Positions 355-59,510 of a stretch of 62,410 bases of DNA are shown here, in pieces. The first letter of the stretch is position 1, and every line of letters begins with the position of its first letter. The position numbers and the translations under genes are program-made. Origin of the DNA: a virus; the IMG/VR virus record IMGVR_UViG_3300013132_000053, positions 1 through 62,410 of that record. One strand, written 5' to 3'. The notes beneath the pieces were generated by a model. It ran no database searches and was not told where the DNA came from. It was given only the letters and a program-made list of their open reading frames with translations.

Positions 355-362
355 TATTTATA
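355..362 (-). promoter_or_regulatory. Late promoter box (TATAAATA) for the gene at 1-348
   Basis: On the minus strand this is an exact match to the T4 late -10 element. It ends 6 nt before the ATG at 348. With T4-type spacing, transcription would begin at or one base before the start codon. Confidence 0.6.
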
Positions 363-861: not shown

Positions 862-869
862 TATTTATT
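862..869 (-). promoter_or_regulatory. Late promoter box (AATAAATA) for the gene at 371-856
   Basis: This is a 7/8 match to the T4 late box on the minus strand, ending 5 nt before the ATG at 856. The predicted transcript would begin on the start codon. It overlaps the stop region of the upstream gene. Confidence 0.5.
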
Positions 870-5597: not shown

Positions 5598-5605
5598 TAT
5601 TTATA
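5598..5605 (-). promoter_or_regulatory. Late promoter box (TATAAATA) for the glycine-rich fibre gene
   Basis: Exact T4 late box on the minus strand with 21 nt to the ATG at 5576. A GGAA element before the start can serve as ribosome-binding site. It overlaps the end of the neighbouring gene at 5601-5975. Confidence 0.65.
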
Positions 5606-8745: not shown

Positions 8746-8753
8746 TATTTATT
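8746..8753 (-). promoter_or_regulatory. Late promoter box (AATAAATA) for the 58-codon gene
   Basis: 7/8 match to the T4 late box on the minus strand, 6 nt upstream of the ATG at 8739. It overlaps the stop codon of the upstream gene. Confidence 0.45.
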
Positions 8754-9859: not shown

Positions 9860-10242
9860 AAAATGTTGCTATATCCTTTAAAAAGATTATCTCTGACTTT
9901 TCCATCTAATTTTCTTGACAATAAGCCAATAAGTTCTCCTTGAAGATGCGGCGGAACTTGTTTTTTCACAATTCTTCCAAGTTCAATTGCAAATTTAGCA
10001 TCTCCTTCTTTGTGGCTTATATTTGAAACGGAATCTATTATTTTTTCCAATGCTTGGACCATTTCTGTTTTCATTGGAATAGATTGATCCATAAGTACCT
10101 TTCCTATAAAAGTTCCGTCATTTGCCATTTGGCTAATAGGCTTTATTTCAGAATTTTCAAATCCAAATCCAAAATTATTAATTTTTTCCACAAGGTATAT
10201 TGAATTAAATAATTGTTTATAATCTTTATTTGTTAGTCCCAT
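9856..10242 (-). CDS. Hypothetical helical phage protein
   Basis: 128 residues starting MGLTNKDYKQLF. I choose the ATG at 10242 over the upstream ATG at 10257. The late box GATAAATA ends 6 nt before 10242, and the upstream start would lie inside the promoter. The C-terminal half (ELGRIVKKQVPPHLQGELIGLLSRK) is helical. No family is recognised. It is the first gene of a minus-strand late operon running to 8563. Confidence 0.5.
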   Translation of the reverse strand: MGLTNKDYKQLFNSIYLVEKINNFGFGFENSEIKPISQMANDGTFIGKVLMDQSIPMKTEMVQALEKIIDSVSNISHKEGDAKFAIELGRIVKKQVPPHLQGELIGLLSRKLDGKVRDNLFKGYSNIL

Positions 10243-10247
10243 AGAAA

Positions 10248-10262
10248 TATTTATCATAAATA
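10248..10262. promoter_or_regulatory. Overlapping divergent late promoter boxes in a palindrome
   Basis: ATATTTAT-C-ATAAATAT forms a perfect palindrome here. The plus strand reads CATAAATA (10255-10262), ending 7 nt before the ATG at 10270. The minus strand reads GATAAATA (10248-10255), ending 6 nt before the ATG at 10242. The two late boxes share a base pair, so two polymerases could not occupy them at once. Confidence 0.6.
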
Positions 10263-10269
10263 TCTTTGT

Positions 10270-10632
10270 ATGTCATGCATTAAAGTAATATTAAATTTTC
10301 AAAACGAAATTCGCCTTCATCATTGGGGAACCCAATCATATTCTGCCCATAAAGCATTGGGCAAAGCATATGAAGGATTAGATGCTCTTTTGGACACCTT
10401 TACAGAGACTTACATAGGAGTATATGGAAGAGAAGAAATCTACTCCATAAAAGAACTTAAATTTAATGGACCAAGTGAAATAGATTGCATAAAAGTTCTG
10501 GACGCTTTTGAAGATTATCTTATTAACAACATTACAAAAGAAATTTCAAAAGATCAGACTGCTCTCTTAAATATAAGGGACGAAATACTTGGACTTGTAC
10601 AAAAAACAAAATACCTTTTGACATTGACTTAA
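10270..10632 (+). CDS. Dps/ferritin-like phage protein
   Basis: 120 residues. The N-terminal half has the iron-site order of Dps proteins: HHW at 17-19, H27, D42 and E46. The H-15-D-4-E spacing is as in Dps, and the first His is three residues closer. The pattern RLHHWGTQSYSAHKALGKAY is common to a family in T4-like phages. Known Dps proteins oxidise iron and shield DNA; whether this shorter protein does so is unproven. It starts at a late box and is followed, with one base shared, by a small basic protein. Confidence 0.5.
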   Translation: MSCIKVILNFQNEIRLHHWGTQSYSAHKALGKAYEGLDALLDTFTETYIGVYGREEIYSIKELKFNGPSEIDCIKVLDAFEDYLINNITKEISKDQTALLNIRDEILGLVQKTKYLLTLT

Positions 10633-10845: not shown

Positions 10846-11214
10846 ATGAAAATTCATGAGCTGGTATACGAGATTCGCCAATTAGCTCGCAAAGAAGAAG
10901 ATCCTGTCAAAAAGGATCTTTTTTATCAAAGTGCAAAAACTATGGAAATACTTGGAAATCTTGCCAAAGTATCAGATTTGGCTGTTGCTGAGTACAAACA
11001 TTCCAAAGACCACAATACAATAGAATTAAATGATAACGTAAAACATTATATTGATTCTGTAACTTTAGATATGTTGGATGAGCATATAGATGCACTTCTT
11101 CACTATAAATTTATTTCCAAAGATGATCGATGGCCTTATGGAAATAATGGAATTGTAAAGTTTACTCCAAAATACCTAAAATCTCAAATCGTAAAAGATT
11201 CAAGCATTGAATAA
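10846..11214 (+). CDS. Hypothetical helical protein
   Basis: 122 residues from the ATG at 10846, chosen because AAGGAG lies 7 nt upstream. A longer in-frame start overlaps the previous gene and has no such site. Mostly helical, with an N-terminal MKIHELVYEIRQLARKEEDP. No family is recognised. Its 3' end overlaps the opposite-strand HExxH gene by 31 bp. Confidence 0.5.
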   Translation: MKIHELVYEIRQLARKEEDPVKKDLFYQSAKTMEILGNLAKVSDLAVAEYKHSKDHNTIELNDNVKHYIDSVTLDMLDEHIDALLHYKFISKDDRWPYGNNGIVKFTPKYLKSQIVKDSSIE

Positions 11215-11783
11215 ACCTTTGGTGGTATTGATCTGTGGCTAAGAACTGCCATGTTTGATGGCATTATCTTGAGCACATTTTTGCTAAAGTATGGACTTTT
11301 TCTATAAGTACCATATTTGCGAGTTTTTTCCATCATAAAATGGCTGTAAATATAGCAATGTGCTCTTTTTACATACAATTTTTTATCAATATTAAGATTA
11401 AATTTGTCTATTAACTTTACTGCTCGTTTTTCACAATCTCTCTCCATTGCCCGAACAAGCAAAAATGCTCGTTTTAGCGTCTTTGGATCATAATTTTTTC
11501 CAGAAAACCAATTTTCTACAATAAGTGCAGCTTTATCAGATTTTTTATAAATTTTAACTTGATTGATATACTGTAAAAAGTGTGCGTATTCATGCACCAA
11601 AGTTTGGAAAAAATATTGATTATTCCCGGCTATCCGAATAATTTTTTCAAATTCACTAAAATATCCCTCACAACGAGAATTTCCGGAATTTACAAATTTT
11701 CCACGTCCTATGACAAGTTTCATTCCGTATTCTGCAAGATGTTTTTTTACAAATCTTACAAACTGATGGTCGGTTTTTGCCAT
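11184..11783 (-). CDS. HExxH zinc metalloprotein
   Basis: 199 residues from the ATG at 11783, which has a strong GAGGAGG ribosome-binding site. An ATG 21 nt further upstream is not so placed. The motif LVHEYAHFLQY gives the HExxH zinc signature of gluzincin/metzincin peptidases and SprT-like proteins. A downstream cluster (ERDCEKRAVKLI) supplies a candidate third ligand (Glu). Similar HExxH proteins are common in T4-like marine phages, with no known substrate. Convergent overlap with the previous gene is 31 bp. Confidence 0.6.
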   Translation of the reverse strand: MAKTDHQFVRFVKKHLAEYGMKLVIGRGKFVNSGNSRCEGYFSEFEKIIRIAGNNQYFFQTLVHEYAHFLQYINQVKIYKKSDKAALIVENWFSGKNYDPKTLKRAFLLVRAMERDCEKRAVKLIDKFNLNIDKKLYVKRAHCYIYSHFMMEKTRKYGTYRKSPYFSKNVLKIMPSNMAVLSHRSIPPKVYSMLESFTI

Positions 11784-11802
11784 AGCAGCCTCCTCAGTCA
11801 AC

Positions 11803-11847
11803 ATTATTTAGGTAATTGCTTGACAGTCAAGTATTAAGTGCTAGTAT
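11803..11847. promoter_or_regulatory. Divergent promoters sharing a palindromic -35 element
   Basis: A 13-bp perfect palindrome CTTGACAGTCAAG (11819-11831) carries a -35 box for both strands. Plus: TTGACA (11820-11825), 16 bp, TAGTAT (11842-11847) with an upstream TG, serving the gene at 11879. Minus: TTGACT (11825-11830), 16 bp, AATAAT (11803-11808), serving the HExxH gene. The palindrome could also bind a dimeric repressor. Confidence 0.6.
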
Positions 11848-14423: not shown

Positions 14424-14469
14424 GATTATTCCTATAAATAGTTCTAGAATATTTAGCTAGGTTAAATTA

Positions 14470-17568: not shown

Positions 17569-17980
17569 TTGTGAATAATTCTTTTTCTGTTAATATTTTA
17601 AACTCTATGTTGTTTTTGCTGCAATAAATTTTTGCAGCTGCCCATTTTGCGCTATTTGTTATCCAAACCATTTTTTCTTTTTTAGAGGCATTTTCTCTTA
17701 ACATTGTCTGTTTTTTTGGTTTTACCTCTATCATCCACGACTTTATTTCCTTGCCATCATTAAATTTTACTAAAAAATCTGGATAGTAGTTATGGATTTT
17801 TTTATCAAGTGGGTTTGTATATGGTATGGCCACTTCCTCAAATGCCCATTTAAGTATGCTTTTATTTTCATCCAAAAATTTGCATAATCTACGTTCCCAC
17901 AAAGAACGACAAAGTATTTTTGTGTGGTCTCCTACGTATTTTTGAATATTTTGGGGTTTGAATAAAGTTTTGTAGGCCAT
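17558..17980 (-). CDS. 4: Head completion protein gp4 (gp50)
   Basis: 140 residues against about 150 in T4. The family signature is clear: KPQNIQKYVGDHTKI, YRSxWE-like CRSLWERRLCKFLDEN, WAFEEVAIPY, and a nuclease-like PDFLVKF ... WMIEVKPKKQ with D and E-x-K. gp4 is required to finish filled heads before tail joining and has a TnsA/VSR-type endonuclease-like core. It is the first gene of the minus-strand operon, and a late box CATAAATA ends 6 nt before its ATG. Confidence 0.9.
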   Translation of the reverse strand: MAYKTLFKPQNIQKYVGDHTKILCRSLWERRLCKFLDENKSILKWAFEEVAIPYTNPLDKKIHNYYPDFLVKFNDGKEIKSWMIEVKPKKQTMLRENASKKEKMVWITNSAKWAAAKIYCSKNNIEFKILTEKELFTNAN

Positions 17981-17986
17981 TAAAAT

Positions 17987-18006
17987 TATTTATGAAAGTA
18001 TAAATA
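17987..18006. promoter_or_regulatory. Divergent late promoter boxes between gp4 and gp48
   Basis: Minus strand CATAAATA (17987-17994) ends 6 nt before the gp4 ATG at 17980. Plus strand TATAAATA (17999-18006) ends 6 nt before the gp48 ATG at 18013. Only 32 bp separate the two start codons, and neither predicted transcript would have an untranslated leader. Confidence 0.65.
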
Positions 18007-18012
18007 TTTTTA

Positions 18013-18831
18013 ATGCCATATGTATTTCAATATCCAGCTATCTCATCTGTGGAGGCTAAAGAACAGCCAAGGTGGATGCGGTTTTATTCTGCTCCATATT
18101 CTTTAAAAAATAAAGAAAGAACAAGGACTTGGATAAAAGCAAATCCATTTGCATCTATAACTTTGCCAATGCCAAAAGAACCTGGATATCAAGTTAGACA
18201 TGAATATGGTGAAGGGACAAACCCAGTTGGTCCTGTTCTTTCTTTAGCTGCTCTTCAGAACAGCGGTGGAGTTGGAAATTTTGACACTTTATTTAATAGA
18301 ATTTTGGATCCTGCAAAATTTCAAAATGAATATATGTATGCTACAACTACATATAGAAGATTTTCTAACGTAACAGAGGCCACTTTGGTTTCTGAAGCAA
18401 GAAAAGAATATTATTTTGAATATCTTTTTGTTCCAAAAAATGAGGCAGATTCAATTCAAGTCGAAGAAATTATTGGAACATTTAGAAAATCATCTTATCC
18501 TACAGTGGCAGGAAATTTGCCGGAAAGAACATATCCTCAAAATATATGGGCTTTGGATGTTGTTCCGGGAGACACGTGGGGTGGTGGTGCAGGGGGTGCT
18601 GCAAATCTTGCAGCAAATTGGCTTGGTGAACCTTTACCATGTGTTTTAACAACAGTATTGGTAAAAAGAAATGATTCAGCAGATCCAATAATAAGATATT
18701 TACCAAATGGACTTTCAAATATAACATTACTTGCATTAAATTTCAGAGAATTTGAAACAGGATCATATGATCCAGCATTGAATCAAGTTTTAAGTAAATC
18801 TGAAATATCAGCAAGAGCATTTCCAAATTAA
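18013..18831 (+). CDS. 48: Baseplate tail-tube cap-like protein (gp48)
   Basis: 272 residues, somewhat shorter than T4 gp48 (364). The order TWIKANPFASITLPMPK, then EARKEYYFEYLFVPKNEADS (an R..YxFxxxLxPK helix-strand), WALDVVPGDTWG, and a closing LALNFREFETG resembles the gp48 family of T4-like marine phages. gp48 caps the baseplate hub and seats the first tube ring with gp54. It starts the long plus-strand structural block, at a late box with no leader. Confidence 0.6.
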   Translation: MPYVFQYPAISSVEAKEQPRWMRFYSAPYSLKNKERTRTWIKANPFASITLPMPKEPGYQVRHEYGEGTNPVGPVLSLAALQNSGGVGNFDTLFNRILDPAKFQNEYMYATTTYRRFSNVTEATLVSEARKEYYFEYLFVPKNEADSIQVEEIIGTFRKSSYPTVAGNLPERTYPQNIWALDVVPGDTWGGGAGGAANLAANWLGEPLPCVLTTVLVKRNDSADPIIRYLPNGLSNITLLALNFREFETGSYDPALNQVLSKSEISARAFPN

Positions 18832-21694: not shown

Positions 21695-22405
21695 ATGCCA
21701 GAATCAACAAAACAGATACACACAATAAGTGCCACAAAGGTCCAAACTATACCATATCCTGGAAGTTCAAGGAATTCATATGATTGTGCTAATCCTTGGA
21801 TAACAAGAGGAGTAACCTCACAACCCTCTACCTATTCTGCTTGCATAAACAATTCGGCCTACGGATCAAAAGTTGCAGCAGTAGTAAATGGCCTTGGCGG
21901 TCTTCCTAATCCTGTATGGAATGGTCCATCTGCAATTTCTGGTGTTCCAAGTAGTATAGATAGTGTTTTTTTAGCAGAAAAATCACCTGAATGTGATTCT
22001 GTTGGATCTCAATTAGGAAATGACTTTAAAGGTTGTTTTTGGTCTGCACCAGATTCATTTTTAAGTTGTTCTTGTCCGGATATTGGAAATAATTATGAAA
22101 ATTACTTAAAATTAAGATTGAACGTAGCTACCTTTTGGTTTACACCAATTGATACTCCAATTCAAAGAAAAAAATTTTTAGATGCAATTTCCTATGGTCC
22201 TAAAATTACTTTTACTGTTGCTGGAGATTTTACCTTAAGGCCCGGAACAATAGTAAAAGTTACTGCAGACAACATAAGCGGATATGATACTTCTTCCGGT
22301 ACATCGGTTCTGACAAAAAAATATTTTGTCCTGTCAGTCAAAAATACCTGTACAAATTCAGGGACCCAGGAAACTACGGTAACTGGCGTAGAAGTTCTAT
22401 ACTAA
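21695..22405 (+). CDS. Baseplate hub-associated structural protein
   Basis: 236 residues from the ATG at 21695; an earlier in-frame start would overlap the previous gene and adds a hydrophobic stub. The first 130 residues contain a Cys/Ser/Pro-rich stretch (CFWSAPDSFLSCSCPD). The last 90 (KITFTVAGDFTLRPG ... KKYFVLSVKNTC ... TTVTGVEVLY) fit the beta-barrel domain of hub or spike proteins, with the G-D-x-x-L-x-P-G-x-x-V turn. It sits directly before gp25. Confidence 0.5.
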   Translation: MPESTKQIHTISATKVQTIPYPGSSRNSYDCANPWITRGVTSQPSTYSACINNSAYGSKVAAVVNGLGGLPNPVWNGPSAISGVPSSIDSVFLAEKSPECDSVGSQLGNDFKGCFWSAPDSFLSCSCPDIGNNYENYLKLRLNVATFWFTPIDTPIQRKKFLDAISYGPKITFTVAGDFTLRPGTIVKVTADNISGYDTSSGTSVLTKKYFVLSVKNTCTNSGTQETTVTGVEVLY

Positions 22406-22414
22406 ATATTGGTG

Positions 22415-24493: not shown

Positions 24494-24936
24494 TAACAAA
24501 AATAATGGGATTTGCTATGGCAATAGCATCCCGTGGTTTTAAAAATTCAAAGATAAACGTAGAAGTAAAAAAACTCAGATATGTCTCATGCTATGGTCAT
24601 GAAAATATAAAACCATGCATTAATCTCAAAAAAAGCGATAAATCTGATTTTTATTATTGTGGTGGGTGTGGTTGCGGTGACTATTCCCATACTTGGCTAA
24701 TAGGAGAAAAAGAAGAATATTCTAAATTGGACTATCCATATCTCGACTGTCCATTGAAAATGCCCGGATTTTCAAATTATGATCCTAATTCCCCGGAAGA
24801 AGATTTTCAAAGGAAAAAAGAAGTAGAAAACATGGATCCAGAAAAATTTAAGTTTATAGAGCTTACTTTATCGGTAAATGAGGAAAAAGAAAAAATATTT
24901 GAGTCACTTATGAAAATGGTAGAAGATCATAAATAA
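24490..24936 (+). CDS. Cysteine-rich zinc-finger-like phage protein
   Basis: 148 residues from the ATG at 24490, which overlaps the previous stop (ATGA). Cysteines at SCYGHENIKPC, YYCGGCGCGD and LDCPLKMPGF make a likely zinc site, and the C-terminal 50 residues are acidic and helical. The YPYLDCPLKMPGFSNY pattern is common in T4-like cyanophages, where no function is known. The CxGGCGC...CP spacing is shared with the protein at 865-1512. Confidence 0.6.
   Translation: MITKIMGFAMAIASRGFKNSKINVEVKKLRYVSCYGHENIKPCINLKKSDKSDFYYCGGCGCGDYSHTWLIGEKEEYSKLDYPYLDCPLKMPGFSNYDPNSPEEDFQRKKEVENMDPEKFKFIELTLSVNEEKEKIFESLMKMVEDHK
24928..24935 (+). promoter_or_regulatory. Late promoter box (CATAAATA) for gp13
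   Basis: 7/8 late box ending 5 nt before the gp13 ATG at 24941, overlapping the end of the previous gene. The predicted start site is the A of the ATG. Confidence 0.55.
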
Positions 24937-29167: not shown

Positions 29168-29175
29168 TATAAATA
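29168..29175 (+). promoter_or_regulatory. Late promoter box (TATAAATA) for gp18
   Basis: Exact late box, 20 nt upstream of the gp18 ATG, with AAAGGG between them as ribosome-binding site. This is the conventional late arrangement with a leader. Confidence 0.75.
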
Positions 29176-30557: not shown

Positions 30558-31103
30558 ATGCCAACACCACAAAATTCAATAGATACATTTAAAGCAAATT
30601 TTTCTGGCGGAACAAGAGCCAATAGATTTGAAGTAATTTGTGATAATTTGTGGCCACAAAATGTTTCAAATAAACCATCAAATTCAAAATTTAAAATATA
30701 TGCCACAAAGATGCCTGCAGCGGATGTTGGTACAATAGCAGTTCCTTACAGAGGCAGGCTTCTTTATTTTGCGGGTGATAGGTCTTATGGATCATGGACA
30801 GTTGAAGTTTATGACGATAGTGAGAATAATTCTCTCTGGAAGGCATTCAATCAATGGAAACACTTGATTGACGGATATGATGATCACTTGGTTGATGATG
30901 ATGATTTTACGTATCAATCGCTCCAAAAAACATGGATATTGAATCAATTAGATTTGAACGGCGGTAACTTAAGAACTATCAATCTAGTTGATTGTTGGCC
31001 AAGTCAAATTGGTTCATTAAATTTTGACATGGCTTCATCTGATCAAAGCGTATTTAGTGTTGTTTTGACTTATAATTTCTATAAAATAGAACAAGGAATA
31101 TAA
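30558..31103 (+). CDS. 19: Tail tube protein gp19, copy 1
   Basis: 181 residues against 163 in T4. Tube-family features are FKANFSGGTRANRFEV, YATKMPAADVGTIAVPYRGR, SWTVEVYDD, LWKAFNQWK, and a final strand FSVVLTYNFYKI. It stacks as hexamers to form the DNA conduit. It is followed immediately, sharing one base, by a second tube-like gene. The longer loop HLIDGYDDHLVDDDDF is acidic. Confidence 0.9.
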   Translation: MPTPQNSIDTFKANFSGGTRANRFEVICDNLWPQNVSNKPSNSKFKIYATKMPAADVGTIAVPYRGRLLYFAGDRSYGSWTVEVYDDSENNSLWKAFNQWKHLIDGYDDHLVDDDDFTYQSLQKTWILNQLDLNGGNLRTINLVDCWPSQIGSLNFDMASSDQSVFSVVLTYNFYKIEQGI

Positions 31104-31639
31104 TGGGCATAAGCATACAAGATTTTAAAAGTGCTTTTAATGGTGGTATGCGTGCAAACAGATTTTCTGTTACGGGTTCAATACCATTTTCAGGTGGCGA
31201 ACTCAGTAAATTTCACATAAGGGCAACTCAAATACCAAACTTGGCAAGCACAACAATCACATATGATTATTTTGGAAGAAAAATAAATTATCCGGGTGAA
31301 TTGCAATTTACGGGATGGAGCGTAATTGTTCTGGACGATGTGTCTGAAAATGGAAATCTTTGGAAAAAATTTAATAAATGGCAAAACGCAATAAACGATC
31401 ACGTAAGTAATATATCTACAATTGAAACTTTTGCCAATAGTTACAAAGCAAATGGATGGCAATTGATGCATCTTGGATTAAATGGTGAAGAAACAGATCC
31501 TGTTAAAACATTTACAATGAATGGTTGTTGGCCAAAAAGCATAAAAGAAATATCTTTGAATATGACGAACGTAAATGTGTTGAATGCATTTTCCGCAGTC
31601 TTCATATATGACAACATTCAGGTTAGAGACGTAACTTAA
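31103..31639 (+). CDS. Tail tube-like protein, tandem copy 2 of gp19
   Basis: 178 residues. It aligns along its whole length with copy 1: FKSAFNGGMRANRFSV, IRATQIPNLASTTITYDYFG, GWSVIVLDD, LWKKFNKWQ, and final FSAVFIYDNIQ. Divergence is high enough that it is not a recent duplication. It may be a second tube subunit, a tube tip or initiator, or a terminator ring. Between it and gp20 a TATAAT-like stretch is present without a good -35. Confidence 0.85.
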   Translation: MGISIQDFKSAFNGGMRANRFSVTGSIPFSGGELSKFHIRATQIPNLASTTITYDYFGRKINYPGELQFTGWSVIVLDDVSENGNLWKKFNKWQNAINDHVSNISTIETFANSYKANGWQLMHLGLNGEETDPVKTFTMNGCWPKSIKEISLNMTNVNVLNAFSAVFIYDNIQVRDVT

Positions 31640-35620: not shown

Positions 35621-35628
35621 TATAAATA
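35621..35628 (+). promoter_or_regulatory. Late promoter box (TATAAATA) for gp22
   Basis: Exact late box 22 nt before the gp22 ATG, with AAGGAC as ribosome-binding site. Confidence 0.75.
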
Positions 35629-36666: not shown

Positions 36667-36674
36667 TATAAATA
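36667..36674 (+). promoter_or_regulatory. Late promoter box (TATAAATA) for gp23
   Basis: Exact late box, 25 nt from the gp23 ATG, with a good TTAGGAG ribosome-binding site in the leader. Confidence 0.8.
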
Positions 36675-38209: not shown

Positions 38210-38217
38210 GATAAATA
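38210..38217 (+). promoter_or_regulatory. Late promoter box (GATAAATA) after the gp23 terminator
   Basis: 7/8 late box directly after the terminator, ending 5 nt before the ATG at 38223. The predicted start site is the A of the ATG. Confidence 0.55.
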
Positions 38218-38222: not shown

Positions 38223-38774
38223 ATGAGCACATGCCAAACATCATTTAGCAATCTTTATGGTAATTACTTTATTTTCAGCGTAAATCGTCCAACAGAAGGT
38301 CAATCCAATACGCCTTCCACTGAAATATTGGAGCTCATGGTACAAAAAGTAAATTTACCTGGATTGACTGTTCCCGATGTTCCTCAGCCAACAACCCTTG
38401 GAATAACCATTCCAGTTCCAACATTGGCAGTTCAATACGAGTCATTAAACGTTGAATTTTTGGTTGATGGACAACTTGAAAACTGGAAAAGTTTGTATTC
38501 GTGGATGAGAAATTTAGCAAACATAGAAAATGACACTGGATATAATTTAGATACATACCAGCAATGGCATGGCAGTGCTTCTCTAATTTTGCCTCAACCA
38601 ATAGATTGCGATACACCATCACCAAATTTAACTGTTTCTTTTGTAAATCTAGTTCCAACTAGACTAACTGGACTGATTTTTCAGGCTGATGTCACCGATG
38701 CTCCAATTTTAAAGGCCAGTTGCAGTTTTAGATTTTCTCACTATACTATAAGTCCAGATTTGGTTACCGGTTAA
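38223..38774 (+). CDS. Tail-tube-fold protein (gp3/gp54 position)
   Basis: 183 residues. The strand-helix pattern (LAVQYESLNVEFLVDGQLEN, WKSLYSWMRNL, then SFVNLVPTRLTGLIFQADV and SCSFRFSHYTI) matches the tail-tube fold of gp19/gp54. In related marine phages the gene after gp23 is often called gp3, tail completion protein. I cannot decide between tube initiator and tail terminator from sequence. It is transcribed from its own late box after the gp23 terminator and converges with the next gene. Confidence 0.55.
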   Translation: MSTCQTSFSNLYGNYFIFSVNRPTEGQSNTPSTEILELMVQKVNLPGLTVPDVPQPTTLGITIPVPTLAVQYESLNVEFLVDGQLENWKSLYSWMRNLANIENDTGYNLDTYQQWHGSASLILPQPIDCDTPSPNLTVSFVNLVPTRLTGLIFQADVTDAPILKASCSFRFSHYTISPDLVTG

Positions 38775-39443: not shown

Positions 39444-40943
39444 TTATTTATCTTTCAATAGATCCATTGAGAATATCTTGTGATCAAATTTTTCTCTTTT
39501 GTATATCTTCAAACGTTCCTCAAAATGTTTTAAAACATGGTTTTTGTAAGATTTAATCGAAAGATCATCAACTATGTCAAAAACCTTTAGAGTTTTCTTT
39601 TTTGCGGATATCCTAAGTCCTCTTCCTATGCTTTGAAGCAATCTGATCACGGATTTAGTAGGTGACGCAAATATAATATTGTCAATGTTAACGATGTTAA
39701 TACCAGCGCTGGTAGTACCAAAACTTGCCACCAGTATTGCATTCGATTCCTTATCGACAACTTTGCGAATGTGCTCTCTTGTTTCTGCTTCTGTTTTTCC
39801 AGAGATAAAATATATTTTTCTATCACCTGCTTCTGCTTCGATGAGAGCCGTGAGGGGTCGTCCATGGAGTTCGACGTAATTGAAGAGTATGAGGGTGTTT
39901 CCTTTTGTTTTGAGTGCAAGATCTTTGATGAATTGGTTTCTTTTTTCATTTGTTACAATCCATTTTATTTCATCTGGATATTTCTGTTTTTTTAACAGAT
40001 GTTTTTCTTCCTCAGTATATTTAAGCATTATGCAATCTATTCCAAGGGTTGCAAGCAATCCTTTGGACATTAGATTTTTTGTATGTATGAATTGAACTGC
40101 AGGTCCTAGAATTCCCTCTATGCTAAGCCTGTGTGCTTGTGCCTGATGTAGGGTTCCTGTAGTACCTATACGAAACCAAGCCTTATGAAGCTTTTGTCCT
40201 ATAAAATTTATTGACTCCGCCTTGGCTTGATGGCACTCATCAAAAAATATAGCATCAAAGTCGGAAAACCATTCCTTTGGCAACTTGTAAATTGACTGCC
40301 ACGTTGAAATCACTATCTGCTTGTTGGTGTCTTTGTCTTGGCCAGCAGATATTTTGTGAATATATTTTTTGCATGACCAGGATTTATCTTGACTAGAATA
40401 ATCAAAAAAATCCGATTCCATCTGGTTAACCAAGCCAACCGTAGGAACCAGAATAAGAATCTTGCGGTCTGTAGGAAGTACCGTTTGAAGAAATCGAACC
40501 AATACGTATATAATGAGACTTTTTCCAGATCCTGTGGGAGAAATCACCACCGAACGATGATTGTTCAATGCATGCAAAATAGCCTGTTCCTGATGGTCGT
40601 GCATCTGGACGTCTTTTTTTCGAACTGTAACCTTCAAAGATTTGTAAAACTCCGAAAGTTTTTCCTTTGTAATGCATAAAGGGTTTTTACTTTCTTTTAT
40701 ATTTAAGGAGTATTTTCTGTCTTCAGAAAATTTTTGAAGATACGATTTCAATCCCCTCGGCAAAGTAGATGATAAAATGTCGTAAAGACGAATTTTGCCG
40801 TCCCAAAGCCTGCGCTTGAACATAGGCATGTATTGTGCACCGGGAACCATGAAGGAAAAATAATCCCTCAGTTCTTTCTTAAGTGCTTGTTCTGTTTTGA
40901 TGTAGTAACGAACTTCATCAATAGATTCAACTTCAATATCCAC
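39444..40943 (-). CDS. uvsW: UvsW RNA-DNA and branch-migration helicase
   Basis: 499 residues (T4: 503). Superfamily 2 helicase. The N-terminal DNA-contact domain has RYYIKTEQALKKELRDYFSF and YMPMFKRRLWDGKIRLYD. Motif I is SPTGSGKS, motif II FFDECHQ, motif III TGTLH, and motif VI LLQSIGRGLR. UvsW unwinds R-loops and Holliday junctions and ends origin-dependent replication in T4, where it is expressed late. A late box TATAAATA stands 4 nt before the GTG start here, which agrees with that timing. Confidence 0.95.
   Translation of the reverse strand: MDIEVESIDEVRYYIKTEQALKKELRDYFSFMVPGAQYMPMFKRRLWDGKIRLYDILSSTLPRGLKSYLQKFSEDRKYSLNIKESKNPLCITKEKLSEFYKSLKVTVRKKDVQMHDHQEQAILHALNNHRSVVISPTGSGKSLIIYVLVRFLQTVLPTDRKILILVPTVGLVNQMESDFFDYSSQDKSWSCKKYIHKISAGQDKDTNKQIVISTWQSIYKLPKEWFSDFDAIFFDECHQAKAESINFIGQKLHKAWFRIGTTGTLHQAQAHRLSIEGILGPAVQFIHTKNLMSKGLLATLGIDCIMLKYTEEEKHLLKKQKYPDEIKWIVTNEKRNQFIKDLALKTKGNTLILFNYVELHGRPLTALIEAEAGDRKIYFISGKTEAETREHIRKVVDKESNAILVASFGTTSAGINIVNIDNIIFASPTKSVIRLLQSIGRGLRISAKKKTLKVFDIVDDLSIKSYKNHVLKHFEERLKIYKREKFDHKIFSMDLLKDK
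39445..39452 (-). promoter_or_regulatory. Late promoter box (GATAAATA) for the Sm-like gene
   Basis: 7/8 late box on the minus strand, overlapping the uvsW stop. The 22-nt leader holds AAGGAAGGGAGG before the ATG at 39422. Confidence 0.55.
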
Positions 40944-40947: not shown

Positions 40948-40955
40948 TATTTATA
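40948..40955 (-). promoter_or_regulatory. Late promoter box (TATAAATA) for uvsW
   Basis: Exact late box on the minus strand overlapping the uvsY stop codon, 4 nt before the uvsW GTG at 40943. T4 uvsW is also under a late promoter. Confidence 0.6.
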
Positions 40956-41477: not shown

Positions 41478-41493
41478 AACTGTGAGGTCTTCA

Positions 41494-42129
41494 ATGATTA
41501 TTGATCTGCGTGAAATCCCAATTGTTTGGATTAATCTTGATTCGGCAAAAAAGAATGCCGAGATGATGGAAGAACGTTTTAAAAAATACGAATTTAAAAA
41601 TACTCATCGTAAACCCGGTATTATTATACCACCTCCAAAAGATACAGACAAGTCCATTGCCCATTTTCGTGGATGTGGTCAGGCACACATTGAAATTTTA
41701 GAAAACAAAAATTATCCAACACCACTTCTTATTTTGGAAGATGATGTGGAGTTTGTTGAAAATTTTAATCCAAAAATTGAAATTCCTGATGATTGTGACG
41801 GAGTGTATTTGGGAATTTCGCATGGAAATATTTTTTACCATACTTGTCAATACAACGAAAATTATTTGCGTATTGCAGGTATTTTGGCAGCACATGCTAT
41901 TTTGTATATAACACCCCAATACAGAAAAGCAATGGCAGATATAGGAAAGTATTGCCTTTATGAATTAAACAAACCTTGGGATGTGGGTACGGCTGGAATA
42001 CAAACTCAGTTTAAAGTCGTAACACCAAATTTTCCTTTAATATACCAATCAAATGACAGAGAGAGTGCAAATAAATGGCAAAATTTAACTGACAAACCGC
42101 TTCAAAACAGAAATAGAATATTTCCATGA
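41494..42129 (+). CDS. GT25-type glycosyltransferase
   Basis: 211 residues. The start is the ATG at 41494, placed 6 nt after GAGG; an upstream in-frame GTG overlaps that site. The beginning IPIVWINLDSAKKNAEMMEE resembles GT25 (LPS galactosyltransferase-like) proteins. LILEDDVEF gives the acidic metal/nucleotide-sugar motif. It is the first gene of the island, directly under a consensus promoter. The next gene overlaps its stop by 4 nt. Donor and acceptor cannot be read from sequence. Confidence 0.7.
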   Translation: MIIDLREIPIVWINLDSAKKNAEMMEERFKKYEFKNTHRKPGIIIPPPKDTDKSIAHFRGCGQAHIEILENKNYPTPLLILEDDVEFVENFNPKIEIPDDCDGVYLGISHGNIFYHTCQYNENYLRIAGILAAHAILYITPQYRKAMADIGKYCLYELNKPWDVGTAGIQTQFKVVTPNFPLIYQSNDRESANKWQNLTDKPLQNRNRIFP

Positions 42130-42911
42130 TAACATTTAATTTGATGGGAAACTATGGAAGATTGGGGAACCAAATGTTTCAGTACGCTACTCTTTATTCA
42201 ATTGCAAAAACAAGAGGATATGAGTTTGGCGTACCTATGCAAAGAAAATCCAAAAACCCATATCACAACTTTTGTTTAAATGAATGTTTTCCAAATCTTT
42301 CTGCAAAAGACAGCACAAATTCAGTTTCAAGTCATAGAGCACAGGAAAGAGAATTTACATACAATGCTGGAATATTTGGTGTACCGGATAATACGGATAT
42401 AACTGGTTATTTTCAAAGTGAAAAATATTTTGTAGATTACAGGCCTCAGATATTGAAAGAATTTAGTTTTAAAGATGAAATTTTTGAAAAATGCGTAGAT
42501 ATAAGAAACATCACAAAGGAACCAGTTATATCTGTACATTTAAGAATTGGAGATTATAAAAATTTAGTAGGTAAACATCCAATATGTTCTATTGAGTATT
42601 ATCAAAAAGCATTGGAATTATTACCAAACGATTTATTAATTATAGCATTTAGCGATGAACCAAATGAAGCTAAAAAACTATTTGATTCACTTGGTAGAAA
42701 GTATTTCATACCAGAGAACGATCAATACTATGATATGTGCTTAATGACACTTTGTAATTATCATGTAATTGCAAACAGCAGTTTTAGTTGGTGGGGGTCT
42801 TGGTTAAGCAAAAGCAAGAAAACAATTGCACCGTCTGAATGGTTTGGTAATTCTCCAGAAATGCCAAAGAACTGGTCAGATATATATTGTGATGGTTGGT
42901 GTATTATATGA
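42126..42911 (+). CDS. GT11 alpha-1,2-fucosyltransferase-like protein
   Basis: 261 residues. All GT11 signatures are present in order: GNYGRLGNQMFQYATLYSIA (N-terminal), VISVHLRIGDY (the HxRxGDY GDP-fucose motif, here with I for the second R) and NSSFSWWGSWLS near the C-terminus. The family transfers fucose from GDP-fucose in alpha-1,2 linkage. GDP-mannose 4,6-dehydratase in the same island fits a GDP-fucose supply. Joined to neighbours by 4-nt overlaps. Confidence 0.85.
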   Translation: MITFNLMGNYGRLGNQMFQYATLYSIAKTRGYEFGVPMQRKSKNPYHNFCLNECFPNLSAKDSTNSVSSHRAQEREFTYNAGIFGVPDNTDITGYFQSEKYFVDYRPQILKEFSFKDEIFEKCVDIRNITKEPVISVHLRIGDYKNLVGKHPICSIEYYQKALELLPNDLLIIAFSDEPNEAKKLFDSLGRKYFIPENDQYYDMCLMTLCNYHVIANSSFSWWGSWLSKSKKTIAPSEWFGNSPEMPKNWSDIYCDGWCII

Positions 42912-43729
42912 ATAAGTTAAATATTTTTACTACAGCATTTAATACTCATTCTTGTTTAAACAGTCCCCCAAAAAATTTTGAGTGGATCTTTAATGTATAT
43001 CCTAAAAAAAAAGAGCCTGTTGTTTATTTTGATGATGCCATTTTTAGATACATGAATGACGGCTACAACGGTCTAAAATATGGATGGCTGGGGGAATCTT
43101 CTGAAATAATAGCACCACTTATAATGGGCGTAACTTTAAATAAAGATATACTAAAATTAAGATACAAAAAAATATTTACTAATGACAGAAGAATTATAAA
43201 CATAGATCCCCAATTTTTTTCTTATAATCCTCCAGCTTCTAACATGCCATGGATTAAAGAACCCAATGTATATGAAAAAAATAAATTGTGTTCTTATACA
43301 ACAAGTTTTAAACAATTTACTTCTGGTCATATAAAAAGAATGGAGTTGTTTGAAAAATTAAAAAACAATCCTAACTTTAAAGATCATATTTTTGGAAGAG
43401 ATTATAAATTTATACCTGACAAATTAGACGGTTTAAAAGATTACATGTTTTCTATAGTTGTAGAAAATAGCATTTATCCAAAATATTATACTGAAAAAAT
43501 AACAGATTGTTTTGCTACAGGAACGGTGCCTATATACTATGGTGATAAAAGCATAGGTGAAGATTTTAATACTAAAGGTATAATTTTTATAGACGATATG
43601 GAAACCTTTGATGTTCTTACTCCAGAACTATATCAAGAGTGTTTGCCATATGTAAAAGAAAATTACGACAGAGTAAATAATCTTACCACAGCTGATGATT
43701 TTATTTACAAGAGTGTAATGAATGATTAA
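42908..43729 (+). CDS. GT10-like glycosyltransferase
   Basis: 273 residues from the ATG at 42908, which overlaps the previous stop. The segment DYMFSIVVENSIYPKYYTEK followed by ITDCFATGTVPIYYG matches the conserved GDP-fucose-binding block of GT10 fucosyltransferases (FKFxLxFENS...YVTEK...PIYWG). The N-terminal part is divergent. It may use fucose or another GDP-deoxysugar. Confidence 0.7.
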   Translation: MNKLNIFTTAFNTHSCLNSPPKNFEWIFNVYPKKKEPVVYFDDAIFRYMNDGYNGLKYGWLGESSEIIAPLIMGVTLNKDILKLRYKKIFTNDRRIINIDPQFFSYNPPASNMPWIKEPNVYEKNKLCSYTTSFKQFTSGHIKRMELFEKLKNNPNFKDHIFGRDYKFIPDKLDGLKDYMFSIVVENSIYPKYYTEKITDCFATGTVPIYYGDKSIGEDFNTKGIIFIDDMETFDVLTPELYQECLPYVKENYDRVNNLTTADDFIYKSVMND

Positions 43730-44588: not shown

Positions 44589-45349
44589 AAACTAAAGTAA
44601 TAACTTTACCAAAAGCCAAAGAAAGACAAAAAAGAATAAAAACATCATTTGATGCAAATTCAATTTTATTTGATTTTGTAGATGGGGTTGAATTTAAAGA
44701 TTGTCAATTTCATGAAATAAATGGCAAACATTATGTAGAAAATAAAAAAAATTTGTTTGAGATAAATGAAGATCTATTTGTATTTAATACAAATAGATCT
44801 TGGATGAGATTTGGAGAAATTGGAGCATACATAGCACACTACAATCTATGGAAAGAATTTAATTACAGTAACAATGAAACAATATTAATCTGTGAAGATG
44901 ATGCATATCCACAGTCAGATATGACATTTTTAAATAAAATTGATTTATCAAATGTAGGTTTTATTAATTTACAAACTGTTACCGCTCATAATCAGGACAA
45001 ACAACCTCTTTATAAAGAACCATTTGTTTCATTTGAAAATAATGGACTTGTAAAATACAAAATGGGTATTTCATTATTGTGCGAAGGATTAACGGCATAT
45101 ATGTTAACTAAAACTGGATCTAAAATTTTGTGTGAATACATAGAGAAAAATGGTTTTGTTGGGCCAAATGATTGTTTAATAACAAAATTGGCAGAACAAA
45201 ATATTTTACCAGTTTATTCCCCCGTGCAGCTTGAAAAGTGTTTTGGGCTTGATGCAGAAACAAATCAAATATCATATACACATAGCGGAACATTTAGGGA
45301 TTACAAAAAATTTAACAAAACTACATTACAAATAAAGGATGAAAAATGA
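44585..45349 (+). CDS. GT25-type glycosyltransferase, second copy
   Basis: 254 residues. GT25 features are TKVITLPKAKERQKRI at the start, the FVDGVEF turn, RFGEIGAYIAHYNLWKEF (G-E-x-G-x-x-x-SH-like) and ILICEDDAYP. It is probably a LOS/LPS-type galactosyl or glucosyl transferase; substrate unknown. It is more typical of the family than the copy at 41494. Linked by 4-nt overlaps. Confidence 0.75.
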   Translation: MKTKVITLPKAKERQKRIKTSFDANSILFDFVDGVEFKDCQFHEINGKHYVENKKNLFEINEDLFVFNTNRSWMRFGEIGAYIAHYNLWKEFNYSNNETILICEDDAYPQSDMTFLNKIDLSNVGFINLQTVTAHNQDKQPLYKEPFVSFENNGLVKYKMGISLLCEGLTAYMLTKTGSKILCEYIEKNGFVGPNDCLITKLAEQNILPVYSPVQLEKCFGLDAETNQISYTHSGTFRDYKKFNKTTLQIKDEK

Positions 45350-53993: not shown

Positions 53994-54998
53994 ATGAAAA
54001 AAACAGCTTTAATTATTGGCGCAAATGGTCAAGACGCTTCATATCTTGCAGAGTTTTTGTTAGATAAAAATTACGAGGTTCACGGTACAATTCGTAGAAA
54101 CTCCGTACCAGAATCACAAACAACTAGAATTCAACACCTTCACGATAAAAATTTAATTAATTTACACTATGCAGATTTAACAGATCCAATTAGCATTGAA
54201 TCTGTAATTCAAAGATTGCAACCAAATGAAATTTATCATTTGGCAGCACAATCTCACGTGCAGATTTCGTTTGAACTTCCGCAATACACTCTAAATGTAA
54301 ATGGTGGGGGTACTCTCGCTGTATTGGAAGCCGTCAGACGTTTTTCACCACATTCCAAGGTCTATCACGCAGCCACATCCGAAATGTTTGGAAACTCATC
54401 TGACGAGGATGGATTCCAGCGCGAAACAACGACAATGATTCCTGTCAGCCCATATGGCTGCGCTAAGCTTTATGCGCACACACTGTGCAGAAATTATGCA
54501 GAATCATATGGCATGTTTGTTTGTTCAGGAATATTGTTTAACCATGAATCGCCTCGCCGGGGCATTAACTTTGTAACAAACAAGGTTGCGTTGCAGGCAG
54601 CAAAGATTAAATTGGGCTTTGCCGACAAGCTAGTTTTGGGAAACCTTCATGCAAAGCGTGACTGGGGCCATGCTAAGGACTATATTGAAGGCATGTGGCT
54701 AATGCTACAGCAACCCAAGCCAGACAGTTTTGTTTTGGCCACCGGGGAAACCAGATCCGTAAAGGAAATGGTGGACCACGTATTTAATAGATTGGATTTA
54801 AACGTTGATACCTATCTGCAGACGGCTGAAAAGTATTACAGACCGGAAGAACTCCACTATCTTCGTGGAGATGCTACCAAAGCAAAGACTGTTCTCGGAT
54901 GGAAGCCAAAAATTACATTTAGTGAGATGATGGATGAGATGGTTGACTATTGGGTTGAAAAACTTAAAAAAACAAATGTTGATTTAGTTGACGTTTAA
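53994..54998 (+). CDS. gmd: GDP-mannose 4,6-dehydratase
   Basis: 334 residues. It makes GDP-4-keto-6-deoxymannose, the precursor of GDP-fucose, perosamine and colitose. Signatures: IIGANGQDASYLAEFLLD, GTIRRNSVPESQTTRIQHL, HLAAQSHVQISFELPQYT, AATSEMFGN, SPYGCAKLYAH, LFNHESPRRG and the C-terminal DWGHAKDYIEGMW. The start is the ATG at 53994, preceded by AAGGAT. It is the last gene of the island. Its stop overlaps the gp55 ATG (TAATG), tying late-sigma translation to a sugar gene. Confidence 0.92.
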   Translation: MKKTALIIGANGQDASYLAEFLLDKNYEVHGTIRRNSVPESQTTRIQHLHDKNLINLHYADLTDPISIESVIQRLQPNEIYHLAAQSHVQISFELPQYTLNVNGGGTLAVLEAVRRFSPHSKVYHAATSEMFGNSSDEDGFQRETTTMIPVSPYGCAKLYAHTLCRNYAESYGMFVCSGILFNHESPRRGINFVTNKVALQAAKIKLGFADKLVLGNLHAKRDWGHAKDYIEGMWLMLQQPKPDSFVLATGETRSVKEMVDHVFNRLDLNVDTYLQTAEKYYRPEELHYLRGDATKAKTVLGWKPKITFSEMMDEMVDYWVEKLKKTNVDLVDV

Positions 54999-55582
54999 TG
55001 TATAATAATAATGTGAAAAAGCCAAAAAAAAAGAAATCAAAAACATCGGACGCAGATTATGTAGATAATCAAGCACTGTACGATGCTTTGGTGGAATACA
55101 GAAAAAAGTGCAAGGATGCAGAAAACTCAGGCAAAAAAAAGCCAAAACTTACTGATTACTTGGGCGAATGCATTTTAAAGATAGCAACAAGATTATCTTA
55201 TAGACCAAATTTTGCAAACTACCCATATAGAGAAGAAATGGTTTCAGATGCAGTATTAAATTGCATAACCTATATCGACAACTTTGACCCAAAGAAGTCC
55301 ACCAGCCCGTTTGGTTACCTAACCCAAATATGCTGGTTTTCTTTTGTTCGTATAATAAACAAGGAAAAGAAAGAAAAGTACACGCAATTTAAATTTGCAG
55401 AGCAGCAGAACAACAAGGACTTTCACAATTGGTTCAATGAAACCTATGCCGGTGTTGACATCGGAAGAAAGGATTTCTTTGGTCTCACTGATTCCGACAT
55501 GGAACGCTTTGACGAAATGTGCAGTCCCAAGAAAAAGAAAAGAAAGAAGAGAAAGACAAAGAAAAACATTTTTGACATATGA
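54998..55582 (+). CDS. 55: Late sigma factor gp55
   Basis: 194 residues (T4: 185). The sigma-2-like core has YPYREEMVSDAVLNCITYID, NFDPKKSTSPFGYLTQICWF and SFVRIINKEKKEK. gp55 directs RNA polymerase to the TATAAATA late boxes seen throughout this window, with gp33 and the gp45 clamp. The N- and C-termini are Lys-rich (KKPKKKKSK; KKKKRKKRKTKK), more basic than in T4. Confidence 0.93.
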   Translation: MYNNNVKKPKKKKSKTSDADYVDNQALYDALVEYRKKCKDAENSGKKKPKLTDYLGECILKIATRLSYRPNFANYPYREEMVSDAVLNCITYIDNFDPKKSTSPFGYLTQICWFSFVRIINKEKKEKYTQFKFAEQQNNKDFHNWFNETYAGVDIGRKDFFGLTDSDMERFDEMCSPKKKKRKKRKTKKNIFDI

Positions 55583-56625: not shown

Positions 56626-58343
56626 TTGAATTTTTAAAAGTTAGATTTAAAAATTTTGGATCGTTTGGAAACAATTTTACAGAAATTGATTTAAATAGCC
56701 GTAAAACAACTTTGGTGACGGGGACGAATGGAAACGGGAAATCCTTCGCTCTTCTTGACTCGATCTGTTTTGGACTATTTGGCAAGCCTTTCCGGCCAAT
56801 CAATATCCCCCAGCTTGTCAATAGCGTAAATGCAAAAGGATGTGTGGTTGAAATTGAATTTAATAAATCAAATTCTCATTACATGATTCGAAGGGGATTG
56901 GCTCCAAAACTTTTTGAAATTTATAAAGATGGCGAGTTATTGGATCAAAATTCCAAGTCAAAGGATTATCAAGGATATCTTGAGGAACATGTTCTTGGAT
57001 TTGATTTTTCTGCTTTTAAGCAAGTTGTCATTCTTGGCAAGTCGAACTTTATTCCCTTCATGCAATTGACCCCTGCAGAACGCCGTAAAATCATTGAGGG
57101 GCTGCTTGAGTTGGATATATTGGCTGACATGAATGTTTATGTCAAAGGTCAACTTGGATCGTTTAAAGTAAGTATTTTGGAGCAAGATTCACTTTTAAAG
57201 ATAGTCCACGAAAAGATAAAATCCCAGAAAGAATTTATAGAACAAATAAAAAATCACAATGAAGATGACATTAAAGCAATTAATGACAAGATAAAATCAT
57301 ATGAGGATGGTATGGCACTGGCATCTTCTGAAAAGATAAACATTTTAAAAAATTTCAATAAACTCAAGACTGAAATAAAGAAAAACAAAGATCATATACA
57401 TTCTCTCAGGGATGTTCCTGCAATGTTAGTCAAGACAGAGACTCTTGAGTCTACTCTGAAGGATGAAATACAGTCACTTCGTTCCACTGCCACATGCAAA
57501 TGCTGTGGGCAAGATCTTCCAAAGGATCAAAAGGAAAAACACATAAAGGAAAAAGAAGCCAAGTTACTGGAATGCAGAAAGGCTCTGGTAACAGCAAATA
57601 GCAAAAACGAAGAGCTAAAGGGTGCACAGGAACTTCTTGAAAAGCAAAAAAACGAAGAGAGCGTTCTTTATAGCAATATTTCAGGCTTGAGCTATAGAAT
57701 TGGAAATGCGGATTCAAACATAAAAGTTTTGGAAAAAGAAAAAAAAGAAAAAGAGACCAGCAGCAACATTGCATCCTTCCAAATCAGTCTTGAAGAATCT
57801 GAATCCAAAAAACTAGAAATATCTAACAAACTGCAAGATCTAATAAATGAACAAATTCACCACGATGTTGTCTACGATATCCTCAAGGATGGTGGCCTTA
57901 AGAGCCGAATTATCAAGCATTATGTTCCCATCATCAATGGACTCGTTAACAAGTTCCTCGGAAAACTTAATCTCTACGTTGACTTTACCATCGATGAGGA
58001 GTTCAAGGAAACAATCAAGTCAAGATATCGAGATGCATTTTCATATTCCAGTTTCTCTGAGGGAGAAAAACAGCGTATCGATCTGGCCATATTGCTGACT
58101 TGGCGCGAAATAGCCAAGATGAAGAATAGTCTTAATTGTAACCTTTTGATCTTTGATGAAATACTTGATTCTTCTTTGGATGCAACAGGAACAGAATCTT
58201 TCTTAAAATTACTTAACAAGATGAAAAATAAATGCTCAATATTTATTATAAGTCATAAAGCAGATTCGCTGACTGATAAATTTGATCAACATATGGCGTT
58301 TGAAAAGAAGAACAATTTTTCCAAGATAAAAGTTCAAGTATAA
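56622..58343 (+). CDS. 46: Recombination endonuclease subunit gp46 (Rad50/SbcC-like)
   Basis: 573 residues (T4: 560). Walker A GTNGNGKS at 34-41, VILGKSNFIPFMQLTPAERR (Q-loop region), long coiled coils either side of a zinc hook CKCCGQDLP near 290, signature FSEGEKQRIDLA, and Walker B LLIFDEILDSSLD. The start is GTG at 56622, inside the gp47 stop. It forms the ATP-dependent clamp that controls gp47. Confidence 0.95.
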   Translation: MIEFLKVRFKNFGSFGNNFTEIDLNSRKTTLVTGTNGNGKSFALLDSICFGLFGKPFRPINIPQLVNSVNAKGCVVEIEFNKSNSHYMIRRGLAPKLFEIYKDGELLDQNSKSKDYQGYLEEHVLGFDFSAFKQVVILGKSNFIPFMQLTPAERRKIIEGLLELDILADMNVYVKGQLGSFKVSILEQDSLLKIVHEKIKSQKEFIEQIKNHNEDDIKAINDKIKSYEDGMALASSEKINILKNFNKLKTEIKKNKDHIHSLRDVPAMLVKTETLESTLKDEIQSLRSTATCKCCGQDLPKDQKEKHIKEKEAKLLECRKALVTANSKNEELKGAQELLEKQKNEESVLYSNISGLSYRIGNADSNIKVLEKEKKEKETSSNIASFQISLEESESKKLEISNKLQDLINEQIHHDVVYDILKDGGLKSRIIKHYVPIINGLVNKFLGKLNLYVDFTIDEEFKETIKSRYRDAFSYSSFSEGEKQRIDLAILLTWREIAKMKNSLNCNLLIFDEILDSSLDATGTESFLKLLNKMKNKCSIFIISHKADSLTDKFDQHMAFEKKNNFSKIKVQV

Positions 58344-58346
58344 ATA
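58339..58346 (+). promoter_or_regulatory. Late promoter box (TATAAATA) for the small carbohydrate-binding-like gene
   Basis: Exact late box overlapping the gp46 stop and ending 7 nt before the ATG at 58354. Confidence 0.6.
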
Positions 58347-58838: not shown

Positions 58839-59510
58839 ATGACTACTGTGACAAAAATGAGACTTTCAAGAGAAACGCTATCAATTCTCAAAAACTTTGC
58901 TTCTATTAATTCAAACATATTGATCAATCCAGGAAATATTCTCCGAACAATGTCGAGCGGAGGAAACATACTGGCAGAAGCAAAGATAGAAGAAGAATTT
59001 GATACTGTTGTTCCTATTTGGGATCTAAACCAATTTTTGGGAGTAGTCAGCATGTTTGCCAATCCAGACTTGGAATTTGGTGAAAAACATGTTGACATAT
59101 CTAATGGAAAATCTTCAGTTAGATATTTTTATTCATCCCAATCTTTGCTTACATATCCAAAGAAGGAAATCTCCATGCCTCCAATCTTTGCATCATTCAA
59201 CCTAAATGAGGATGACATTGATGAAATGATCAAGGCAGCAAGCATTCTCCATGTATCCAATCTAAAGATTATCGGCAATAATGGTATGCTTAAAGTAATT
59301 GTTGATGATCCAAAGAATGATACATCAAACAGTTTTTCCATAACGATTGATGAAAACTATGATGGTCCAGATTACAGTGGATATCTCAATATTTCAGACA
59401 TAAAGTTTTGCCCAGGATCTTATAAAGTCGAATTGAGCAAAACTGTTATTTCTAAATTTACACACGATTCTGGAAATCTAGTATATTATATCGCCATCAA
59501 CAAGGCTTAA
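58839..59510 (+). CDS. 45: Sliding clamp gp45
   Basis: 223 residues (T4: 228). Clamp-type pattern: MRLSRETLSILKNFASINSN, ILAEAKIEEEF, VPIWDLNQFLGVVSMF, LTYPKKEI and the C-terminal FCPGSYKVELSKTVISKF. The trimeric clamp gives the polymerase processivity and also activates late transcription with gp33 and gp55. AAGGAT lies before the ATG. Confidence 0.93.
   Translation: MTTVTKMRLSRETLSILKNFASINSNILINPGNILRTMSSGGNILAEAKIEEEFDTVVPIWDLNQFLGVVSMFANPDLEFGEKHVDISNGKSSVRYFYSSQSLLTYPKKEISMPPIFASFNLNEDDIDEMIKAASILHVSNLKIIGNNGMLKVIVDDPKNDTSNSFSITIDENYDGPDYSGYLNISDIKFCPGSYKVELSKTVISKFTHDSGNLVYYIAINKA

Follow-up and report, generated by a model that had tools for sequence, protein, structure and literature searches.

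Late transcription in bacteriophage T4 is a textbook system, and its promoter boxes are assumed to serve leadered mRNAs. T4 late promoters (TATAAATA; gp55/gp33/gp45) are well described (PMC2988020), and promoters of the type NATAAATA have been reported in cyanophages (PMC2984593). Late mRNAs that lack a leader are known from Thermus phage phiYS40, in which most middle and late mRNAs are leaderless (Sevostyanova 2007, described in PMC3594737). In bacterial leaderless genes the −10 box lies ~12 bp before the start codon (PMC3160421; for Deinococcus-Thermus, PMC12340547), and a promoter box adjoining the open reading frame is an accepted computational mark of such genes (PMC3160421).

The window analyzed here is the whole of a 62,410-base IMG/VR virus record with 35% GC, from a T4-like phage. 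Its promoters resemble the late promoters of T4 and cyanophages in the 8-bp NATAAATA box, the presence of the sigma and clamp genes, the AT-rich stretch after the box and a purine about six bases further on. They differ in placement, since the boxes of T4, Syn9, S-PM2, P-SSM2 and DSL-LC02 stand mainly 16-31 nt from the ATG while a third or more of those in the window's clade stand at 5-8 nt, and in the variant CTAAATA, which is common in the clade, unlike in the T4 and cyanophage systems. Bacterial leaderless genes show the same signature of a box adjoining the ORF and no Shine-Dalgarno (SD) site, but with sigma70-type promoters, whereas the clade has a phage late-sigma promoter. The likeness to phiYS40 lies in a lytic phage with later transcripts without leaders, whose translation would depend on a 5′-terminal AUG; phiYS40 is unrelated, and the window's clade has two predicted classes within the late genes, fixed per gene, behind T4-type promoters. 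The Melnitz-like and pelagimyophage genomes (PMC9004378, PMC7029224) are, together with cyanophages, the nearest cultured relatives, and HTVC008M and Mosig have the same box placement as the window's clade. No mention of leaderless placement was found in the passages of these two papers that were consulted, and the open-access literature searched yielded no description of leaderless late genes for T4-like phages; leaderless late mRNA, known in phiYS40, looks new within the T4 group.

Source and gene content of the window

The window encodes head, neck and packaging genes (gp4 head closure, Ad2 neck protein, terminase, portal, gp22 and gp23), and also a UvsW-type helicase, UvsY, gp46/gp47, gp45 clamp loader and RegA. 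No tRNA was found in the window. At the DNA level the window matches cultured phages poorly (65-67% over 13-16% of the query), the nearest being cyanophages, pelagiphages and OM43 phages (Kyanoviridae). A sugar/cofactor block on the plus strand (41482-53979) holds glycosyltransferases 10, 11 and 34, a DegT aminotransferase, a TPP enzyme, epimerases and PanB, the ketopantoate hydroxymethyltransferase. The closest sequences to this PanB (69-75%) come from contigs with the labels Pelagibacter, Marinimicrobia and Prochlorococcus; a host call from the auxiliary gene was rejected because these contigs are themselves possibly viral. There are also three tail-tube-family (phrog_45) genes in this one phage, at 30558-31103, 31103-31639 and 38223-38774, all on the plus strand.

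Late boxes in the window

The initial annotation listed ten NATAAATA boxes ending 5-7 nt before an ATG, and all of its coordinates and gaps are correct (Table 1). All ten cases are real; the list was incomplete, lacking the gene at 22415 (+), which has the variant box CTAAATA, and uvsW at 40943 (−), which starts with GTG. In uvsW the GTG 4 nt after the box is conserved (window and loci L089-L095), and the mRNA would be a leaderless GUG one if +1 were shifted by one base.

Table 1. Late boxes and late-transcription genes of the window. Distances run from the end of the box to the start codon; classes are predicted.
Feature	Position	Strand	Remark
Late box ATAAATA, 6 nt before ATG at 348	355..361	−	leaderless class
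Late box, 5 nt before ATG at 856	862..868	−	leaderless class
Late box, 6 nt before ATG at 8739 (58 aa ORF)	8746..8752	−	leaderless class
Late box, 5 nt before ATG at 10242	10248..10254	−	back-to-back with + box 10256-10262
Late box, 7 nt before ATG at 10270 (DUF5856/phrog_858 gene)	10256..10262	+	leaderless class
Late box, 6 nt before gp4 (head closure) ATG at 17980	17987..17993	−	leaderless class
Late box, 6 nt before ATG at 18013 (weakly baseplate tail-tube-cap-like)	18000..18006	+	
Variant box CTAAATA, 6 nt before ATG at 22415 (weakly baseplate-wedge-like)	22402..22408	+	
Late box, 5 nt before ATG at 24941 (head-tail adaptor Ad2, gp13-like)	24929..24935	+	
Late box, 5 nt before ATG at 38223 (tail-tube-family protein phrog_45)	38211..38217	+	
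Late box, 4 nt before UvsW-type helicase GTG at 40943	40948..40954	−	possible leaderless GUG
Late box, 7 nt before ATG at 58354	58340..58346	+	
Late box, 21 nt before ATG at 5576 (long ORF, fibre gene of the initial annotation)	5598..5604	−	leadered, weak SD
CTAAATA box, 21 nt before ATG at 11783	11805..11811	−	leader with GAGGAGG, kept in orthologs
CTAAATA box, 26 nt before ATG at 14423	14450..14456	−	leadered
Late box, 20 nt before ATG at 29196 (gp18 position, identity not confirmed)	29169..29175	+	leadered
Late box, 22 nt before gp22 scaffold ATG at 35651	35622..35628	+	leadered
Late box, 25 nt before gp23 major head protein ATG at 36700	36668..36674	+	leadered, strong SD
Late box, 22 nt before ATG at 39422	39445..39451	−	leadered, strong SD
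gp55 late sigma factor, presumed reader of the boxes	54998..55582	+	PHROG 234, E 9.6e-52
gp45 sliding clamp, T4 late-transcription activator	58839..59510	+	PHROG 223, E 7.4e-66

It is the placement of ATAAATA, not its frequency, that is unusual. The heptamer occurs 32 times in the window against 28 expected, which is the one point in favor of chance in an AT-rich genome, and an ORF-opening ATG follows at 5-7 nt in 10 of these 32 sites, compared with 10 of the 1044 sites in the window of 20 permuted heptamers composed of the same letters. The permuted heptamers predict ~0.3 such cases (binomial p 3.5e-13 for ten). Five further ATAAATA boxes stand 20-25 nt from an ATG, and among the 32 sites those with an ORF-opening ATG within 45 nt include none at 8-19 nt or anywhere else outside the two ranges.

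For the leadered genes the initial annotation gave leaders of 20-25 nt; these values are right as box-to-ATG distances, while the leaders predicted with +1 six nucleotides after the box are 15-20 nt, or 15-21 nt once the list is extended by the CTAAATA genes at 11783 (−) and 14423 (−). Its assignment of 29196 (+) as gp18 fits by position, but PHROGs give its product no match at E ≤ 1, and the HTVC008M sheath shows no similarity with it. The label "Sm-like", taken to mean the genes at 10270 (+) (searched against Pfam and PHROGs) and 39422 (−) (PHROGs only), has neither Pfam nor PHROG support in the former and no PHROG support in the latter. A start at 11804 (−) was rejected, as this first ATG touches the CTAAATA box and the conserved start with a strong SD site is 11783, 21 nt further down; the protein of this frame (11184-11804, −) carries a HEYAH motif (metallopeptidase-like).

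Two divergent gene pairs, 10242 (−)/10270 (+) and 17980 (−)/18013 (+), have two opposed boxes within intergenic spaces of 27 and 32 bp. Pairs of this kind, in spaces of 26-37 bp, number 46 among the clade loci (in 42 of the 71) and one in HTVC008M (gp2/gp4), and none was found in T4, Melnitz, Syn9, P-SSM2, DSL-LC02 or S-PM2. The regions 10240-10272 and 17978-18015 are putative bidirectional leaderless promoters, at which opposed polymerases would compete for the same DNA.

Box-to-ATG spacing among relatives

Three IMG/VR scans with gp4, Ad2 and gp23 as queries gave 240 loci, 160 after dereplication (2.0 Mb). The count of box-to-ATG distances in related genomes, which had been proposed as a check, is bimodal, with one class at 5-8 nt (190 of 901 boxes), a broad second class at 16-31 nt and few boxes between them at 9-15 nt; these pooled fractions over-represent the three query genes, and related contigs are not independent. 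The window's clade has an ATG at 5-8 nt for 164 of 462 boxes against 6.3 expected. The corresponding numbers are 12/45 in HTVC008M, 3/42 in Melnitz, 1/66 in P-SSM2, 1/55 in DSL-LC02 and 1/59 in S-PM2, and no ATG stands 5-8 nt after a box in T4 (0/65) or Syn9 (0/38). Four whole contigs of 117-137 kb, which are without the query-gene bias, agree with the clade loci in giving 17, 15, 17 and 17 pattern matches against 3, 3, 2 and 6 with a reversed-pattern control.

An unbiased scan of all heptamers 4-8 nt before clade ATGs found ATAAATA 156 times (2.4 expected) and CTAAATA 42 times (0.86 expected), both ranking high among mostly SD-like words. In the same scan SD-like words fill the six top places shown for T4 and HTVC008M, and the Syn9 list is weak. 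CTAAATA has an ATG 5-8 nt downstream in 51 of its 178 clade copies, and in some clade gp4 genes it replaces ATAAATA at unchanged spacing. Judged by its placement, CTAAATA is a second predicted functional late box of the clade, behaving as ATAAATA does. A distant gp4 group (L073-L088) has TATATAC-type words at a similar distance from the ATG (7 vs 0.13 expected), which may be an altered late box that has retained the leaderless spacing.

Among cultured phages, the pattern matches fall exactly on annotated CDS starts in 12 of 15 cases in HTVC008M and 8 of 10 in Mosig, both SAR11 phages. The matches at annotated starts include gp48, gp25, Ad2, gp2, the tape measure and CsgF genes in HTVC008M, and gp25, gp2 and a tail-tube-family gene behind gp23 in Mosig; gp4 and gp3 of HTVC008M have CTAAATA at 5 nt. 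No box at 5-8 nt was found for gp23, gp18, gp19, gp20 or gp22 of these two phages; the first four have SD sites in both, and gp22 has one in Mosig but not in HTVC008M. A gene for ribosomal protein bS21 is present in HTVC008M (NC_020484), Mosig (MT647606) and Melnitz-2 (MZ577096), and was found in 0 of 17 environmental contigs searched, those of the window's clade among them, which are possibly fragments. Phage bS21 as a common enabler is not supported, being confined to HTVC008M, Mosig and Melnitz among the genomes searched.

Translation signals and the predicted transcription start

SD pairing (dG ≤ −4) is present at 3% of leaderless-class starts (6% in shuffled sequence), at 91% of leadered starts (11% shuffled) and at 46% of operon-internal starts (13% shuffled). 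The start codons 5-8 nt after a box are almost exclusively ATG (161 vs 8 GTG and TTG together), and equally placed GTG/TTG codons and other AT-rich heptamers show no enrichment. A preference for ATG is expected for leaderless initiation (PMC9031893); uvsW, with its GTG 4 nt after the box, is a conserved exception.

The position of +1 was taken as six nucleotides after the box, a rule carried over from T4, where the late box spans −13 to −6 (PMC2988020). With a gap of 5 nt transcription would thus begin at the A of the ATG, and with 6 or 7 nt the leader would be 1-2 nt long. At gaps of 7-8 nt the predicted leaders measure 2-3 nt, so that such mRNAs would be nearly but not strictly leaderless. 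An indirect, independent check on +1 is the sixth base beyond the box: 18 of 19 window promoters have a purine there, the four genes with a gap of 5 nt having A by construction, and it is A in 20 of 20 gap-8 cases of the clade. Among leadered boxes the base is A or G in 82% of those in the clade and A in 67% of those in T4, while the clade boxes without an ATG have a purine there in 55%.

The mechanism that we propose is that the boxes are T4-type late promoters read by the phage gp55 with RNA polymerase and the gp45 clamp, and that at about 12 genes of the window they are placed such that +1 would be the A of the ATG or one of the 1-2 bases before it. The mRNAs would have leaders of 0-2 nt (as much as 3 nt in relatives), and ribosomes would initiate on their 5′-terminal AUG without an SD site, probably by 70S-type initiation, whereas gp23, gp22 and other late genes would keep leaders of 15-21 nt with an SD site. 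We put the probability of gp55-directed late promoters with +1 on or near the ATG, giving leaderless mRNAs beside SD-led late genes, at about 0.83. The suggestion that the late genes form two translation classes is strongly supported and has passed every available sequence test: the bimodal spacing, the conservation among orthologs, the split in SD sites, the ATG starts and the purine at the predicted +1 all favor it, and the pattern is absent from T4 and nearly so from the cyanophage controls.

Class is fixed gene by gene

With variant boxes included, the leaderless class is found in 57 of 58 orthologs of the gene at 24941 (Ad2), 44 of 57 of 17980 (gp4), 35 of 38 of 18013, 7 of 7 of 8739, 9 of 11 of 10270 and 8 of 10 of 38223. 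On the same basis the leadered class holds for 8 of 8 orthologs of 35651 (gp22), 7 of 7 of 39422 and 21 of 22 of 14423, and the orthologs shown for 11783 have a leader with an SD site in common. The genes at 348 and 856 have no orthologs among the loci and that at 10242 has one only. On these counts the predicted class belongs to the gene.

The leader has been lost relative to orthologs in T4 and cyanophages: clade gp4 boxes stand 5-6 nt from the ATG, against 26 nt in T4, 24 in Syn9, 25 in S-PM2, 25 in P-SSM2 and 30 in DSL-LC02. In the gp4 protein tree a branch with an SH-aLRT of 99 has all 48 leaderless rows on the same side. Ad2 is of the leaderless class in the window's clade and HTVC008M, and leadered in Mosig, S-PM2 and DSL-LC02. 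In a tree of the major head protein the SAR11/OM43 phages and the window's group are separate and leadered-only groups are among the neighbours, which would mean either two gains or repeated losses; the class labels on this tree, counted per locus, are confounded because loci cover different genes, and are usable at the whole-genome level only.

Possible reasons for a split of the late genes

In T4, gp4, the tail cap, the neck and the baseplate wedge are low-copy parts. Bulk virion proteins that are mostly leadered and several low-copy parts that are leaderless suggest that yield is being tuned, and compact packing is an equally good reason. That the leaderless placement is a by-product of compact gene spacing (streamlining) with no role in yield, which would change the purpose and leave the leaderless reading as it is, we consider quite plausible, at somewhat less than even odds. 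Many of the cases do lie in divergent spaces of 26-37 bp or right behind an upstream stop codon, and the cultured relatives have hosts with small, streamlined genomes. Yet the same genomes contain leadered late genes, the class is fixed per gene, and high-copy parts mostly have leaders or strong SD sites in the window's clade and in both SAR11 phages. Other low-copy genes, gp20 and gp21, are leadered in SAR11 phages. The purpose that we prefer, though at rather less than even odds, is a setting of translation yield, in which SD sites would serve the virion parts made in the largest amounts and the parts made in few copies would be leaderless.

A wider version is speculative, and we regard it as less likely than not: the lineage would have divided its late genes into an SD-led programme for bulk parts and a leaderless one for low-copy parts by shifting the gp55 box by ~20 bp, translation of the leaderless genes would rely on intact 70S ribosomes and on the levels of initiation factors, so that the phage could shift the balance late in infection, and the trait would have arisen or been kept separately in SAR11 phages and the window's clade.

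Other readings of the boxes

A different reading takes the box as an AU-rich translation-initiation element in RNA, instead of or besides a promoter, with mRNAs that begin further upstream and an A/U stretch in place of the SD site. It would account for starts without an SD site behind a T-rich, conserved box-to-ATG stretch. It is nevertheless improbable, as the same heptamer stands 16-31 nt upstream, together with SD sites, elsewhere among the late genes and at the orthologs of these very genes in T4 and cyanophages; the divergent spaces of 26-37 bp already hold two back-to-back boxes, leaving no room there for another promoter; the purine six bases after the box in both classes fits +1; and gp55 is encoded.

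The boxes might also be real late promoters with translation beginning at an in-frame codon further down, or on transcripts from upstream that bear an SD site, and alternative in-frame starts do exist in some genes, 11804 (−) being a precedent. We hold this to be very improbable. The alignments of gp4 and Ad2 to relatives begin at or within a few residues of the Met, for which reason a wrong start codon was rejected for these two genes, the annotated starts agree in 20 of 25 pattern matches of the cultured SAR11 phages, and the spacing to the exact ATG is conserved while the surrounding sequence changes. Chance in an AT-rich genome is refuted by the control heptamers, the clade counts, the conservation in orthologs and the start-codon test.

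Implications

Leaderless late mRNAs made from gp55-directed promoters would make these uncultivated aquatic T4 relatives a deep lineage in which the leader has been removed gene by gene, linking promoter placement to translation mode. Prediction of late promoters by the cyanophage method was reported as unsuccessful in pelagimyophages (PMC7029224), and boxes that hug the ATG could, by our own inference, help to explain this failure. Recognition of the placement would help to annotate late genes and their starts in very abundant aquatic phages. The two classes would provide a natural comparison of leaderless and SD initiation on orthologous genes, and the two cultured SAR11 phages make the leaderless reading testable.
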